Source: a virus. Taken from it: a DNA stretch of 20,250 nucleotides. How positions within the stretch are numbered: the stretch's first letter is position 1; every line of letters starts with the position of its first letter. The notes beneath the pieces were generated by a model. The model ran no database searches. It was not told the origin of the DNA and worked only from the letters and a program-made list of their open reading frames with translations. Shown piece by piece: positions 2 to 6,073 of this stretch. The stretch spans positions 1 through 20,250 of IMG/VR virus record IMGVR_UViG_3300009495_000112, one strand, 5' to 3'. Both the position numbers and the translations under genes were made by a program.

Positions 2-895
2 GACTACGGTCTTAGATTGGTTAGAAATAATGGCGGAGCTAATACAAACTCTGAGATTATACACAGAGGAACAGGTGCTTTAAATTTAAACGTTACTCAA
101 GCAGGAAGTATAACACTTAAAACTAGCAACCTTGAAAGAGTTCGTATTAACTCATCAGGCAACGTTGGTATTGGAACGACTAGTCCTAGCAAGAAACTTG
201 ATGTTAATGGAAGCTTAGGATGTACTAGTTTTGAAATGGGTAATCTTAAGATGTTTACTACTTTTGGTAGTATATTTATAAATGGCACAACTAGTGGTAA
301 TACTATATTTTATGGAGCTCCAGCAAGTTTTACTCAAAATTTACAAGTCAATGGCACTGTAACATGTGTTAACCTTGTGCAGACATCTCAGACAGATAAA
401 AAGAAAGACATATCTAACATTGATAAAAGCAAAGCTAAAACAATCCAGTTTAAAGAATATAAATATAAAGAAGGAGATGGTGATAGAAAAAGATATGGTG
501 TATTAGTAGAGGATTTAGAAAATGATTACCCTGAGCTAGTGCACGTAGGAGCTGATGGAGTAAAAGGTATTAACTATATTGACTTATTAGTAAAGCGTGT
601 AGCTGAACTTGAAAAAGAATTAGAAGACATATCTTTAACACCAGGGCCAAAAGGTGACACAGGCGCTACAGGTGTGCAAGGTGCGCAAGGACCAAAAGGA
701 GACACAGGAGCAACAGGCCCACAGGGTGCAACTGGTGCAACTGGTGCAGCTGGAACTAATGGTTCTAATGGAAAAAACGGAGCAGATGGTAATAGCCATT
801 TAAGTAATGTAACTAGCATAGCGTTTAACCCTAAGGCTAACAGATTAGAAGTAAATATAGGTGGAACGGTATACAACTTTGTACCATCAAAATAA
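2..895 (+). CDS. Tail fibre C-terminal part with S74 chaperone and collagen-like repeat (5' partial)
   Basis: The reading frame is open at the left edge, so the gene starts before the window; TTG at 17 is the first start-like codon inside but is unlikely to be the true start. Residues below count from that TTG. Residues 49-65 carry the GNVGIGTTSP-type segment common in phage fibres. Residues about 124-205 match the peptidase S74 (endosialidase chaperone) family: S124 and K129 keep the Ser-(4)-Lys spacing of the self-cleaving dyad, followed by KDI, then YGVLVEDLE, PELV and a closing coiled segment. In this family the domain trimerises the fibre and then cuts itself off. Residues 208-258 are 17 Gly-X-Y triplets. 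Residues 259-292 form a short beta-rich tail. S74 domains usually end the protein, so the collagen-like part and tail beyond it are odd. It probably belongs to the host-binding apparatus. The S74 call is firm; the role of the extra tail is not known. Confidence 0.85.
   Translation, partial: DYGLRLVRNNGGANTNSEIIHRGTGALNLNVTQAGSITLKTSNLERVRINSSGNVGIGTTSPSKKLDVNGSLGCTSFEMGNLKMFTTFGSIFINGTTSGNTIFYGAPASFTQNLQVNGTVTCVNLVQTSQTDKKKDISNIDKSKAKTIQFKEYKYKEGDGDRKRYGVLVEDLENDYPELVHVGADGVKGINYIDLLVKRVAELEKELEDISLTPGPKGDTGATGVQGAQGPKGDTGATGPQGATGATGAAGTNGSNGKNGADGNSHLSNVTSIAFNPKANRLEVNIGGTVYNFVPSK
638..790 (+). repeat. Collagen-like Gly-X-Y coding repeat
   Basis: Seventeen uninterrupted triplets (TPG, PKG, DTG, ATG, VQG, AQG, PKG, DTG, ATG, PQG, ATG, ATG, AAG, TNG, SNG, KNG, ADG) lie downstream of the S74 domain. 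Such stretches form triple-helical stalks in many phage fibres. Lys sits in the Y position twice (PKG) and Pro once (TPG). The DNA is itself repetitive (ggt/gga-aca-gga units), which makes this a likely site of repeat-number change. Confidence 0.9.
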
Positions 896-919: not shown

Positions 920-1252
920 ATGATAACTTACGATTGGAATTGCAAAACAGTAGACGTTTATCCTGTAAATGGAGATAACTCGGACGTAGTGTATAATGTA
1001 CACTGGATAGCAAAAGGAACTACAGAACAAGAAGGTGTAACTTATTCATCTACAAGCATTGGAACTCAGGTATTGGATATTAGTGACATCACTAACTTCA
1101 TTCCATTTGAGGACTTGACAAATGATGAAGTTGTGGGTTGGACTAAGATAGCTATTGGTGAGAAACAAGTTTCTTCTATAGAGGAGTCTATTGCTCATCA
1201 AATACAAGCTAAAATAACACCTACATCTATTACGTTGACAATTGAAAATTAA
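920..1252 (+). CDS. Small conserved phage protein (DUF7936-like)
   Basis: This is a 110-residue protein. The N-terminal half alternates hydrophobic and polar residues (VDVYPVNG, VVYNVHWIAKG), suggesting beta strands. It is followed by IPFEDLTNDEVVGWTKIAIGE and a helix ending in IAHQIQAK. The order 'Y-W near the start, V.W in the middle, PFEDLT..VVGW, then IE..I..QI' recalls a small family of phage proteins of unknown function that I know as DUF7936, often encoded near tail or fibre genes. The family name is from memory. The gene has its own promoter at 879-907 and ends just before another, so it may be made as a single-gene transcript. No catalytic motif, signal peptide or membrane segment is visible. 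A small structural or fibre-associated role is only a guess from position. Confidence 0.75.
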   Translation: MITYDWNCKTVDVYPVNGDNSDVVYNVHWIAKGTTEQEGVTYSSTSIGTQVLDISDITNFIPFEDLTNDEVVGWTKIAIGEKQVSSIEESIAHQIQAKITPTSITLTIEN

Positions 1253-1288: not shown

Positions 1289-1543
1289 ATGTCAAAAAAA
1301 ATTACAGAGCAAGAGCTGGAGAAACTCCAGGGGCTTGTACAAGGATTAAACAAAATTGTTACTGACTTAGGTCTTTTAGAGACTCAGAAGCATTCAATTT
1401 TACATTCATTCAGCGATGCAGACGCCAAGCTAAATGAGTTTAAGCTTGAATTAAATGAGGCTTATGGAGATGCAAGCATTAACATCTCAACAGGTGAAAT
1501 AGATGACAAAGATCAAGAATTACGAGCTAGACTCGACGATTAA
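1289..1543 (+). CDS. Small helical/coiled-coil phage protein
   Basis: The 84-residue product is almost wholly helical in appearance: a first amphipathic helix (ITEQELEKLQGLVQGLNKIVTDLG), then a second (ETQKHSILHSFSDADAKLNEFKLELNEAYGD), then a short polar tail ending in an acidic patch. I do not recognise a functional family. The shape suits a small two-helix bundle or oligomerising assembly factor. The ATG at 1289 has an AT-rich leader and sits just after promoter P2. The last 41 bases overlap the start of the fibre gene in another frame, so translation of the two may be coupled. That and the position suggest, but do not show, a role with the fibre, such as a chaperone or adaptor. Confidence 0.7.
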   Translation: MSKKITEQELEKLQGLVQGLNKIVTDLGLLETQKHSILHSFSDADAKLNEFKLELNEAYGDASINISTGEIDDKDQELRARLDD

Positions 1544-4500
1544 CGATGACGATAAAGTAATTGGTACTGACGGCTTGCCAGGTCCAAATTTTGGTAGGAC
1601 TAAAAATTATTCAATTGGTTCGTTAGTAACTTACATAGAAAATCAATTAGACCCTGTTGATGGGTCTGGAACACTAAATACAATCCCTATCTGGACTCCA
1701 GATGGGGATACTTTAGGTGATTCTATAATGACATATGCCACTGGAACTATTACGGTTGCTGGTGGTTTAGGTATTACTGGTAATCTAGATGTAACCCTTA
1801 CATCGACGTTTGAAGGAGATGTTTCTTTAGGCGAAGGCTTAAAAGATGCATCTGACAGTTACGGTACACCTAATCAGTTATTAACGTCAACGGGAACTCA
1901 GACATCTTGGCAAGACTTCTCAACGCTTGTACCAAATAACATTACGGGATCGGGGACATTAAACACAATAGCAATGTTCACACCTGACGGAACAGCTATA
2001 GGTGATTCCTTAATTACTCAGAATGCTGCAGGTACACGTATTGATATTACCGTAAATTCTACCGCAATAAGCGGAAATGTGGGAATTGTAGGTAATTTAG
2101 ATCTTACAGGGGTAGCTACATTTGAGAATGATATCTCAGTAGGAGAAGGATTAAAAGATGCTTCAGATAGCTACGGAACAGCTAACCAGTTGTTAACGTC
2201 AACGGGAACTCAAACATCTTGGCAAGACTTCTCAACGCTTGTACCAAACAATATTACAGGATCTGGTACGGTAGAATATATACCTAAGTTTACACCAGAT
2301 GGTACAGCTATAGGTAATTCTATAATGTTCACAAAACCAAACGGGATAGAAATACAAGTAGGGGTTACAGCAGGGCCATCGCAAACAACACTAGGGGCTG
2401 GGTCTATAACTACTGGTGGATTGGGAGCGGACACCGTAACAGCAACAAACATAAACGCAGGAGCTACAGGTACACTAACAGCTTCTGGAAATATAATACT
2501 AGGTGACGCTACAGCAGACACAACAACAATAAACTCAACACTGTCAATTCTTAGCGTTGTAAAGGACAGCAATGATACTCTCGGTACAGATGGCCAAATA
2601 TTAGTGGCAAACGCAGCAAGTGAGCTTCTATGGCAGGACCAAGATGGTGATACTACATACTCTATATCTTCTCAACAAGCGGCGTCAGATGTGGAAATTA
2701 ATTTAACAGGAAGTGATGTAACTGAATCAGAAGTAACGCTTGTAGCTGGAAACAGTATAACGCTTACGGACGATGGCAGCAATAATATTACAATCGCTGC
2801 AACAGGCGGAGCCGCTAACACAACGTATTCATTAAATAATACTCAGGCAGCTACATATACTGATTTACAATTAGTTGGATCTGATGCTACCACAACTAGC
2901 TATAGATTTGAAGCTGGAACAGGGGTTACATTTGATCAAGATCCAGGAGTTGCAACTACTATTGAATTTGACATATCAAGCTCAGGCGCCGTAGGTGGAT
3001 CTGGAACGCTTAACACGGTACCGCTTTGGACGCCAGACGGGGATACTTTAGGAGATTCATCTTTGACTGTTGATGCAGATGGAGGTGTTACGATAGACAC
3101 TTTAGCGTATGGGACATCAAATATAACACCTGAATTAACTTTAAGAGGAAATAAATCAAGTCTTATTTTAGAATCACTTGGATATGGAGATGCGTTTATT
3201 TTCTTTAAACCTAATCCAATTAGCGGTAGCTTAGGCGTATTTAGTATAGACGACCCTGTGCCCGCAACTCCTTCTGCAAAATTTGTATGGAAAAAAAACA
3301 TTGCCGAATACATGCGCCTTGACACAGTTACTGGAAACCTAGGTATTGGAACAACAACTGCAACACATAAAGTACAGGTAGAGGGAACTGAAGGTTTTAA
3401 AGCAACAGATGCTGGTGTTAGTTATTTTGAAGTTTTTAAAGAATTTAGCAATACAGCCATTTGGACTGGTGTTGATGGAGGCACAATATATATTGGAAGC
3501 TTTGCACCAGCTCAAAGTCAAAATTTACAAGTGCAAGGAACTGGTAGATTTATGGATGGTATAAAAGATACATCTGATAGCGTAGGTACTTCAGGTCAAA
3601 TATTAACATCTACTGGGTCACAGGTTCAGTGGGTAGATCTATCTGGATTAATACCAAACAATGTAACAGGGTCTGGTACTGAGAACTTCGGTGTTCTATG
3701 GGGAGCAGGTGGAACAGTACTAACAGACTCATTGCTTAAGCACGGAACAGGTGTAAATAGTGTGGGTATAGGATTAAATAACGATACACAGGGATTAGAG
3801 TCAATTGCATTTACTAGATCAACATCTAAGGCAGATTATTCTTTCGCTCTTGGATACGAAAGCGTAACTGACGGAGAGTTCTCTGTAACATTAGGTAAAG
3901 GTACTTACACAGCTGGTAGACACGCTATGGCCGCTAACTATAAGTCATTAGCTTTAGGTCAGAGCTCATTCGCAGGTGGACACACTAGTGCTACTGGTGG
4001 TGACGGAGCGGTTGCTTTAGGTCACAATGCATCGGCTGGAAACTTTGGGGCTGCTAAGCTAGTTGCAACATTCCCTAACGACCAAACTACGTTTGATATA
4101 GAGGGAATTGTAGGAACAGTTGAGGCTGGACTATTCATGAGATATGGAGAGAACCTTGATGTTCCAGACCCTAGAATTGAGGTATTAACATTTACTGATA
4201 ACGGAAATAACTCAGCAACTTTAACTGTAGCAGCACCAGGTATACGACCAATTCAGGGTGAATTAGTAGTATTTGAAGAGGCAACACCTTTCAGAGGAGA
4301 TCACCAAGGTGGTGTAGCTCTAGGTAACGATGCTTACTCTTTAGGAGAAGGAACGGTATCTATAGGTCATACTTCTGTAGCAGAGGCTGATAAGGCTGTA
4401 GCTTTAGGAGATGCCGCTAGATCATCTGGGGCAAGTTCTGTAGCTATAGGTAAGAATGCAACGGTAACATCCGCAGATACAATAGCCTTAGGTGGCGATT

Positions 4501-4631
4501 CAACTAAAATTTTAATGAACGCATTAGCCGCATCATCATCTTATGCAGATGACGTTGCAGCCGCAGCTGGAGGCGTCGCCATAGGTGAGCTTTACAGAAA
4601 CGGAAATATAGTGCAGATAAGATTAACTTAA
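1503..4631 (+). CDS. Modular tail fibre with internal repeats and YadA-like head region
   Basis: A 1042-residue protein. The N-terminus (TKIKNYELDSTINDDDKVIGTDG) is the form common to fibre or baseplate-anchoring ends in Bacteroidota phages. A GSGT-type unit (GSGTLNTIPIWTPDGDTLGDS) recurs at about residues 54, 149, 253, 499 and 723. A linked unit starting LKDASDSYGT recurs at 113 and 217, with diverged copies at 353 and 687. Residues about 612-685 resemble the segment before S74 in the fibre at 2-895. From about 770 on, runs such as FALGYES, LALGQSSFAGG, VALGHNA, VSIGHTS and VAIGKNA match the YadA/Hep-Hag left-handed beta-roll of trimeric adhesins, interrupted at about 845-935 by a non-repeat insert. 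It ends in GVAIGELYRNGNIVQIRLT, a typical fibre terminus. No S74 domain is present. It is probably a trimeric host-binding fibre. The ATG at 1503 is inside the previous gene. Confidence 0.85.
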   Translation: MTKIKNYELDSTINDDDKVIGTDGLPGPNFGRTKNYSIGSLVTYIENQLDPVDGSGTLNTIPIWTPDGDTLGDSIMTYATGTITVAGGLGITGNLDVTLTSTFEGDVSLGEGLKDASDSYGTPNQLLTSTGTQTSWQDFSTLVPNNITGSGTLNTIAMFTPDGTAIGDSLITQNAAGTRIDITVNSTAISGNVGIVGNLDLTGVATFENDISVGEGLKDASDSYGTANQLLTSTGTQTSWQDFSTLVPNNITGSGTVEYIPKFTPDGTAIGNSIMFTKPNGIEIQVGVTAGPSQTTLGAGSITTGGLGADTVTATNINAGATGTLTASGNIILGDATADTTTINSTLSILSVVKDSNDTLGTDGQILVANAASELLWQDQDGDTTYSISSQQAASDVEINLTGSDVTESEVTLVAGNSITLTDDGSNNITIAATGGAANTTYSLNNTQAATYTDLQLVGSDATTTSYRFEAGTGVTFDQDPGVATTIEFDISSSGAVGGSGTLNTVPLWTPDGDTLGDSSLTVDADGGVTIDTLAYGTSNITPELTLRGNKSSLILESLGYGDAFIFFKPNPISGSLGVFSIDDPVPATPSAKFVWKKNIAEYMRLDTVTGNLGIGTTTATHKVQVEGTEGFKATDAGVSYFEVFKEFSNTAIWTGVDGGTIYIGSFAPAQSQNLQVQGTGRFMDGIKDTSDSVGTSGQILTSTGSQVQWVDLSGLIPNNVTGSGTENFGVLWGAGGTVLTDSLLKHGTGVNSVGIGLNNDTQGLESIAFTRSTSKADYSFALGYESVTDGEFSVTLGKGTYTAGRHAMAANYKSLALGQSSFAGGHTSATGGDGAVALGHNASAGNFGAAKLVATFPNDQTTFDIEGIVGTVEAGLFMRYGENLDVPDPRIEVLTFTDNGNNSATLTVAAPGIRPIQGELVVFEEATPFRGDHQGGVALGNDAYSLGEGTVSIGHTSVAEADKAVALGDAARSSGASSVAIGKNATVTSADTIALGGDSTKILMNALAASSSYADDVAAAAGGVAIGELYRNGNIVQIRLT
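1881..1936 (+). repeat. Near-identical fibre repeat core, copy 1
   Basis: These 56 bases match 2193-2248 with one mismatch (g at 1901, a at 2213). The offset is 312 bases, exactly 104 codons. Bases on either side encode nearly the same residues but differ at many silent positions. Confidence 0.9.
2193..2248 (+). repeat. Near-identical fibre repeat core, copy 2
   Basis: Second copy of the 56-base core at 1881-1936, in the same reading frame of the same fibre gene. It encodes LTSTGTQTSWQDFSTLVP in both copies. Confidence 0.9.
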
Positions 4632-5039: not shown

Positions 5040-5603
5040 ATGAAATCACCTTTTAACTTTATTGTACGTCCGTGCAATGGTAGAAGGTATGATAACGTAA
5101 AAGAGATTGGTGGGGTTGACTTTATAACCAGCACGTCTCAGGAGGATCATACCGTATCTAACAGATATGCCGAAGTAGTAGAGACACCTATAGGATATGA
5201 TGGCGAAATACAGCCTGGAGATACTATTATAGTTCACCACAATGTTTTTAAGTATTATAACGACATGAAGGGTCGCCAAAAGAGCGGTAAGAGCTTCTTT
5301 AAGGATGACTTATTCCTTGTTGATGATTACCAGTATTTCTTGTATAAACATAATGATGAGTGGAAGGCTGAGGATCAGTTTTGCTTCGTGAAGCCGGTCC
5401 CTAAGGAGGAATTCTACTTACACGTACCTGGTGTAGAACAGCCGCTAGTTGGAACCATAAAATACACAAATAACAAATTACTATCTTTAGGAGTAGAAGA
5501 GGGAGACTTAGTTTCCTTTAAACCTGATAGTGAGTACGAGTTTAACATTGAAGGAGAGAAGCTATACAGGGTATTTACTAGCAGTATAACAATGAAGCTA
5601 TGA
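5040..5603 (+). CDS. GroES-like (co-chaperonin-like) protein
   Basis: A 187-residue protein. The first 70 residues follow the GroES plan: an opening strand (FIVRP), a loop with GGVDFITSTS where GroES has its mobile loop with GGIVL, then AEVVETP, then IQPGDTIIVHHNVF in place of the VGD-IVIF strand. A second stretch, GVEEGDLVSFKPDSEYEFNIEGEKLYRVFTSSITMKL (150-187), again looks like the GD-V-F ... dG-e-y-I ... s-I end of a GroES barrel. Between them (75-125) is an insert with a DDLFLVDDYQYFLY block. GroES itself is about 97 residues, so this is roughly twice that: either one barrel with an insert or two lobes. T4 gp31 is the precedent for a phage co-chaperonin needed for capsid folding. The downstream gene overlaps by 4 bases (ATGA). 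The match is by eye; confidence in the fold is moderate. Confidence 0.55.
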   Translation: MKSPFNFIVRPCNGRRYDNVKEIGGVDFITSTSQEDHTVSNRYAEVVETPIGYDGEIQPGDTIIVHHNVFKYYNDMKGRQKSGKSFFKDDLFLVDDYQYFLYKHNDEWKAEDQFCFVKPVPKEEFYLHVPGVEQPLVGTIKYTNNKLLSLGVEEGDLVSFKPDSEYEFNIEGEKLYRVFTSSITMKL

Positions 5604-6073
5604 ATGTATCTATATATGAAAATGTAATAAAAGACATAGATGATTATGTTTTTGACATAATAGATAACGGCTTTGAAGATATTCAAGTTGGAGACGATCT
5701 ATTTAAAAATGTTCGTCAGAGAGGTTTAGATGAATTGGTTGAGTTTCTTTCAGATAAATACACGGATTACTCCCCGGTATTGAATTTTGTTAGAAGATCT
5801 CCTTTGAATCAGGAAGAGCCTAACTTTATTCACACAGATGAAATGATGGGTGATTTAACCGCTATATTATATTTGAATAAAACGTATCCAAGTGGATACG
5901 GAACAACGATATACGATAAAGATAACAATGAGGTTTTGATATGTAAAGCAAAGTACAATTCTCTTATCATATTTCCTTCACATGTAAAGCATTCTAGAAA
6001 TTCTTTACACAACTTTGGCGATGGTGATGACGCAAGGTTAGTCCAGGTTTGTTTTTTAAAAAAAATAATATGA
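5600..6073 (+). CDS. 2-oxoglutarate/Fe(II)-dependent oxygenase-like protein
   Basis: A 157-residue protein starting inside an ATGA overlap with the previous stop. It shows the expected landmarks of the prolyl-hydroxylase-type double-stranded beta-helix: FIHTDEM with H78 and D80 as the HxD iron ligands, TAILYLN (88-93), a SGYGTTIYD strand (98-106), then SLIIFPSHVKHSRN with H128 or H131 as the distal ligand, and R146 in ARLVQVCF as the likely 2-oxoglutarate anchor. Family members hydroxylate protein side chains, nucleobases or small molecules. The substrate is not evident here. The length suits a single catalytic core with no added domain. Its place among virion genes points to a protein target more than to DNA. 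The motif set is clear; exact subfamily and substrate are unknown. Confidence 0.75.
   Translation: MNVSIYENVIKDIDDYVFDIIDNGFEDIQVGDDLFKNVRQRGLDELVEFLSDKYTDYSPVLNFVRRSPLNQEEPNFIHTDEMMGDLTAILYLNKTYPSGYGTTIYDKDNNEVLICKAKYNSLIIFPSHVKHSRNSLHNFGDGDDARLVQVCFLKKII

Follow-up and report, generated by a model that had tools for sequence, protein, structure and literature searches.

A phage fibre protein with a mid-protein Peptidase_S74 chaperone followed by a conserved collagen-like stalk and beta tail

We describe a marine phage fibre protein in which an intramolecular chaperone of the Peptidase_S74 type lies in mid-protein and is followed, in the same frame, by a collagen-like stalk and a small beta tail, a real arrangement that is both conserved and uncommon. 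The protein is encoded at the beginning of the window, by which we mean the whole 20,250-base stretch of viral DNA analysed here (IMG/VR record IMGVR_UViG_3300009495_000112). S74 chaperones are generally taken to be throw-away C-terminal parts. Here the chaperone has an intact Ser/Lys pair and precedes a conserved, exchangeable collagen-tip cassette, which makes the protein a variant of S74 fibres whose possible mechanism is fairly surprising. In our best explanation, which we judge to have about an even chance of being correct, the S74 domain still cuts and would thus give two useful trimers.

The 3' part of the fibre gene occupies positions 2-895 of the plus strand (stop codon at 893-895) and encodes 297 residues in frame. 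The frame is open to the window edge with no stop before it, and the real start lies upstream, outside the window. A contig from another sample (L001) encodes a protein identical over all 297 residues, with a full open frame of 654 aa (653 from the first Met). The features that follow are all on the plus strand. The distal fibre shaft (2-385), built of repeated beta-helix motifs of the type GNVGIGTTSPSKKLDVNG, ends at the predicted cut T128|S129; it matches tail-fibre PHROGs such as phrog_9942, and its residues 34-112 match the Bdellovibrio fibre bd2133 in the PDB. The predicted self-cutting motif S-Q-T-D-K-K (386-403) contains the catalytic Ser129 (386-388) and Lys134 (401-403), which correspond to about S485 and K490 of the full-length protein. 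The preliminary description had rightly regarded this pair as intact, but its numbering, S124/K129, was counted from an arbitrary TTG at base 17. The motif opens the body of the chaperone (386-568; Pfam PF13884), which is recognized at residues 133-181 with 30.3 bits against a cut-off of 22 (33.7 bits in the genome search) and is the single S74 match in the whole record. The domain closes with a C-terminal helix, GINYIDLLVKRVAELEKELEDISLT (569-640), expected to form a trimeric coiled coil; it is heptad-like and is predicted at model residues 99-118 by an AlphaFold monomer model, which is silent on oligomeric state.

Beyond the coiled coil lie another 84 residues, so that S74 is not the last domain of this protein. 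They begin with a collagen-like run of 17 perfect Gly-X-Y triplets (644-796, residues 215-265), which matches Collagen PF01391 at residues 214-264 (33.6 bits; cut-off 27.2) and overlaps a DNA tandem repeat at 643-729. An unbroken series of 17 glycines, one in each triplet, cannot be put down to chance. The C-terminal beta tail NSHLSNVTSIAFNPKANRLEVNIGGTVYNFVPSK (791-892, residues 264-297), which we call tail type 1, spans about 34 residues and is modelled by AlphaFold, as a monomer, as three beta strands with a pLDDT of about 82. The 51 Gly-X-Y residues and the 34-residue tail described earlier are borne out, as is the beta nature of the tail; the coordinates then given for the collagen-like run, 638-790, lay two residues too early. 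The S74 part gave a low-confidence model, since a monomer model is unsuited to intertwined trimers, and its best PDB fold match was 3gw6 (E 0.62); a fold search with the S74-collagen-tail model returned nothing significant. Among cultured phages the tail alone had no match at E values up to 10, and the whole fibre protein matched one Pelagibacter phage only, through its upstream part alone. The next gene (920-1252, plus strand) encodes a DUF7936 protein (PF25590, 78.7 bits), which served as the anchor for neighbourhood comparison.

A scan of viral contigs rendered 21 relatives, and a later scan added one more, L208. Once fragments and an exception, L021, were set aside, the relatives were found to carry S74, helix, Gly-X-Y and tail in one frame. 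The order S74, collagen-like repeats, beta tail is therefore real, being repeated in at least 19 viral contigs. The preliminary description was to give way to homologues showing the order to be common and already explained; this applies by half, as homologues of the same order exist but the literature searched offered no explanation of them. One relative, L210, retains S74 and tail and has no collagen. The helix is near-invariant in 12 relatives, its sequence VAELEKELEDISLT being all but constant, and the Gly-X-Y run starts where S74 proteins usually end. The 12 distinct S74 domains of the fused clade form one group against 48 others (support 86 on a short alignment), which makes a single origin of the fused S74 the simplest reading; as identities to the window over the segment from S74 to the end drop to 53%, the fusion is old and has been kept. 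In L014 and L208 a DUF7936-like gene comes after the fused gene, and the gene beyond it resembles that of a contractile tail sheath, as judged by eye. Because of this neighbour the cassette seems to cross phage types.

A terminal position of S74 is the rule in phages, not a law. The domain was last in 15 of 15 S74 proteins of cultured phages from many families, with the gene ending within about 60 residues of the match, and none of the 15 had collagen after it. The preliminary description, which held that S74 is normally last, was right for these phages; it did not hold for MYRF, in which a membrane segment lies after the S74-type domain and both cut products persist (PMC3742443), or for nine of 65 bacterial loci. 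These loci came from a sample of 198 genomes of one phylum (that of a bacterial locus), 57 of which had S74; 70 loci were fetched and 65 could be scored. In the nine, S74 is followed by a type IX sorting-like domain, which exceeded the NCBIfam cut-off in four of five bacterial sequences tested; L233, L263, L273 and L196-L198 are bacterial proteins of this kind. Gly-X-Y after S74 was found in 0/65 of the scored loci of this phylum, and bacterial genomes held only five weak relatives of the fused-type S74 clade, all without collagen.

The exception L021 carries the same collagen and tail on a separate protein of 168 aa, with tail DNA 94% identical to that of the window. A separate collagen-tail gene of this sort was found in three close loci, in 22 of 77 DUF7936-anchored loci and in 79 loci retrieved through its N-terminal domain. 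The split protein has an N-terminal domain of 87 residues that closes with a long helix, then a Gly-X-Y run whose length varies, and finally a tail, of which there are at least four types. In AlphaFold monomer models the split form has a tail of three strands at good confidence and a helix ahead of the collagen; the fused and split layouts are alike in these models, with a long helix, Gly-X-Y and the same three-stranded tail. A fold search with the split protein matched a viral "collagen-like protein" and fold searches were otherwise uninformative; a search of cultured phages with it gave no matches. The gene starts 1-8 bases past the stop of the upstream fibre gene or overlaps it by one base, and that fibre has a beta-rich tip at its end and no S74. 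Where the upstream gene is visible (70 of the 79 loci) it encodes the non-S74 beta-rich tip in 68 and S74 in none. The tip had no significant match in the PDB, the best being a lactococcal phage receptor-binding chimera (E 0.13). Two further split-type proteins, L372 and L378, have the N-terminal domain and the tail and have lost the collagen, a mirror of the fused L210, and L322 represents a third context, a long collagen protein with the same tail at its end.

The two forms exclude each other. The 77 anchored loci divide without overlap into 7 fused, 22 split, 30 with S74 and no collagen, and 18 with none of these, so that fused and split genes occur together in 0/77; among 23 longer contigs, none had both an S74 profile match and the N-terminal domain of the split protein, though for such fragments absence is no proof. 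A rough hypergeometric value for the exclusivity (1e-8) was set aside, as the loci share ancestry. The tail is also shared across the forms. Between the window and the split locus L091 the tail DNA is 94% identical, as against 67% for the DUF7936 gene and 68% for the terminase, and the window's tail DNA is identical to that of the fused L041. In the tail tree, from a short alignment, fused and split tails are mixed: the labels change seven times, just as often as when they are shuffled, and on the same short alignment the hypothesis that all split tails form a single clade is rejected (p-AU 2.6e-5). The fused L012 has a tail type otherwise typical of split proteins (49 bits). Judging from these sequences, tail DNA moves between the fused and split forms. 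Since the cassette is a separate gene and its tail is exchanged between forms, it is an independent cassette that acts as a polypeptide in its own right, and in the split phages a separate polypeptide therefore suffices for what it does. The 30 S74-last loci lack both collagen and tail, which shows that some relatives can do without the cassette. In four of the S74-last relatives (L044, L054, L078 and L082) two adjacent DUF7936-like genes stand in tandem.

The Ser/Lys pair, five apart at the start of the domain, is kept in 13 of 13 distinct relatives; Ser, the Gln after it and Lys are invariant in all alignment rows, the three positions separating that Gln from Lys are variable, and the tyrosine pair of EYKYK is conserved in the S74 alignment. 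The spacing equals that of S911/K916 in endoNF and S587/K592 in MYRF (PMC8326128). The residue before Ser129 is Thr128, and T5 likewise cuts between Thr and Ser (PMC4690869). An Arg at position -14, with counterparts in R897 of endoNF (PMC8326128) and R1250 of T5 (PMC4690869), occurs in 11 of the 13 distinct relatives. The conserved pair, this Arg and the preceding Thr count for a cut. Two substitutions count against it: the Asp that follows Ser in the canonical motif SDxxxK is Gln throughout the fused clade (SQxxxK), and position -14 is Gln instead of Arg in the subclade to which the window belongs. Asp does follow Ser in the 28 S74-last neighbours listed, which were selected by that very motif; LtfA of phage DT57C, for which self-cleavage is predicted (PMC4728585), has none in its aligned motif, TSGIEYK. 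MYRF cuts without the stalk Arg (PMC8326128), so loss of Arg at -14 does not imply loss of cutting. Nor was this Arg accepted as proof of catalysis, as most canonical S74 neighbours and cultured phages also lack it.

The preliminary description had posed a dilemma: self-cleavage would send collagen and tail away with the chaperone, which made sense only if the released trimer had a job of its own, and otherwise the chaperone would stay as an uncut linker, with the tail as the tip. The separate collagen-tail protein of the sister phages strengthens the former branch, and the latter stays under consideration. In the mechanism we favour, the chains would trimerise via the coiled coil of S74 together with the collagen stalk and beta tail, the fibre shaft would fold, and the Ser/Lys pair would then cut ahead of Ser129. 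The products would be (i) the mature fibre and (ii) a second trimer of S74, coiled coil, collagen and tail, which might serve separately as a tip or whisker on a stalk, whether it stays at the end of the fibre or sits at another site on the virion. The order, its conservation, the exclusivity and the cassette exchange are seen in the sequences; the cut and the retention and function of this trimer are inferred. The S74 cut in the fused gene would correspond to the stop and start codons of the split pair, and the coiled coil of S74 would stand where the split protein has its helix. If S74 does cut, what is released is a trimer equivalent to the sister protein, and the paradox disappears. The released piece would have no counterpart of the split protein's N-terminal domain, and if that domain is the anchor, there would be none unless S74 serves. 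Somewhat more tentatively, S74 may be a self-cleaving polyprotein joint, by which one gene would yield fibre and collagen-stalked tip in equal amounts, the chaperone becoming the base of the second protein. If true, phages would have a counterpart of MYRF in which the chaperone is reused rather than discarded, and sister phages would obtain the same two proteins from a pair of adjacent genes.

The most serious competitor, which we consider rather doubtful, is that the protein stays uncut, or is cut without separation, so that S74 would be a structural joint and the collagen stalk and beta tail the distal, host-facing tip; in split phages, correspondingly, the N-terminal domain would dock the stalk non-covalently onto the beta-rich fibre tip. 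It remains serious because the fused gene has no copy of that domain, which may be the docking part, and fusion would take its place. The almost strict pairing of the split gene with one kind of fibre tip (68/70) is as expected if the two touch, the several exchangeable tail types resemble tip diversification, and the loss of Asp after Ser in the whole clade and of the -14 Arg in the window's subclade also counts in its favour. Against it stand the retention of the Ser/Lys pair while the residues between vary, the cutting of MYRF despite its missing stalk Arg, and the canonical motif of the S74-last neighbours.

It is improbable that collagen and tail are merely an extended folding nucleus, a foldon-like C-terminal trimeriser discarded with the chaperone. 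The tail is indeed a compact three-stranded unit, and PfC is a C-terminal trimeriser after phage collagen in E. coli prophages (PMC3368898). However, a cassette of this kind sits on a separate polypeptide in 79 loci and cannot act there in cis on the fibre, S74-last relatives fold without it, and the tail persists in L210 despite collagen loss; as split phages use the cassette as an independent protein, it is unlikely to be purely a throw-away nucleus. Least of all do we expect an artefact or a recent accidental fusion, in which a lost stop or repeat recombination added a functionless neighbouring gene. Recombination could be promoted by the repeat DNA and the sister gene sits just downstream in split phages, but conservation contradicts this reading: the order recurs in at least 19 contigs from many samples and the fused S74 group is divergent, down to 53% identity.

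The S74 proteins of the K1F endosialidase, T5 pb1 and the phi29/GA-1 neck appendage resemble the window protein in PF13884, in the Ser-Lys pair five apart and in the beta-helical shaft before it. They differ in their canonical SDxxxK motif, where the window clade has SQxxxK, and in ending after a C-terminal trimeric coiled coil, with the chaperone discarded; here the helix is predicted only, and the protein continues with 17 Gly-X-Y triplets and a beta tail. MYRF likewise has its S74-type domain (ICA) in mid-protein with functional sequence on both sides (PMC3742443), but it is a eukaryotic membrane transcription factor with a membrane segment where the window protein has collagen. The bacterial proteins with a type IX sorting domain share the non-terminal S74; their sorting domain serves secretion, and collagen was seen in 0/65. 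EPclA of E. coli prophages combines a coiled coil, a Gly-X-Y stalk and a C-terminal trimerising module in one trimer (PMC3368898); it has no S74 domain, unlike the window protein, and the likeness is one of layout, not a comparison of tail and PfC. By analogy only, the split pair recalls gp37 and gp38 of phage S16, where the fibre bears at its distal tip a capping protein that is made separately (PMC6851490), though gp38 is a monomeric polyglycine adhesin and not a collagen trimer; the profile match of the window S74 to gp37 is weak and not significant (E 0.046). The fused and split relatives provide a natural test of the fate of a released chaperone, and the S74-collagen-tail protein would offer a compact self-processing fibre design. 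For annotation it is a warning that sequence beyond an S74 domain can be functional.

By its terminase, which matches an uncultivated spring phage at 74% and Flavobacterium Elemovirus phages at 46%, the record falls among the podovirus-type phages of Bacteroidota. A gene at 5600-6073 has a sub-threshold match to 2OG-Fe(II) oxygenases (22.3 bits; cut-off 27), and its relatives are present in many of these phages. It was considered as a collagen hydroxylase and rejected: such genes also lie near collagen-less S74 genes (L040), and none was seen between the split gene and the terminase in L021, a distribution that gives no link to the collagen cassette. At 1503-4631 lies a second long fibre-like gene (1042 aa), which had neither S74 nor a PHROG match; its product ends in GGVAIGELYRNGNIVQIRLT and has YadA head repeats close to the C terminus.
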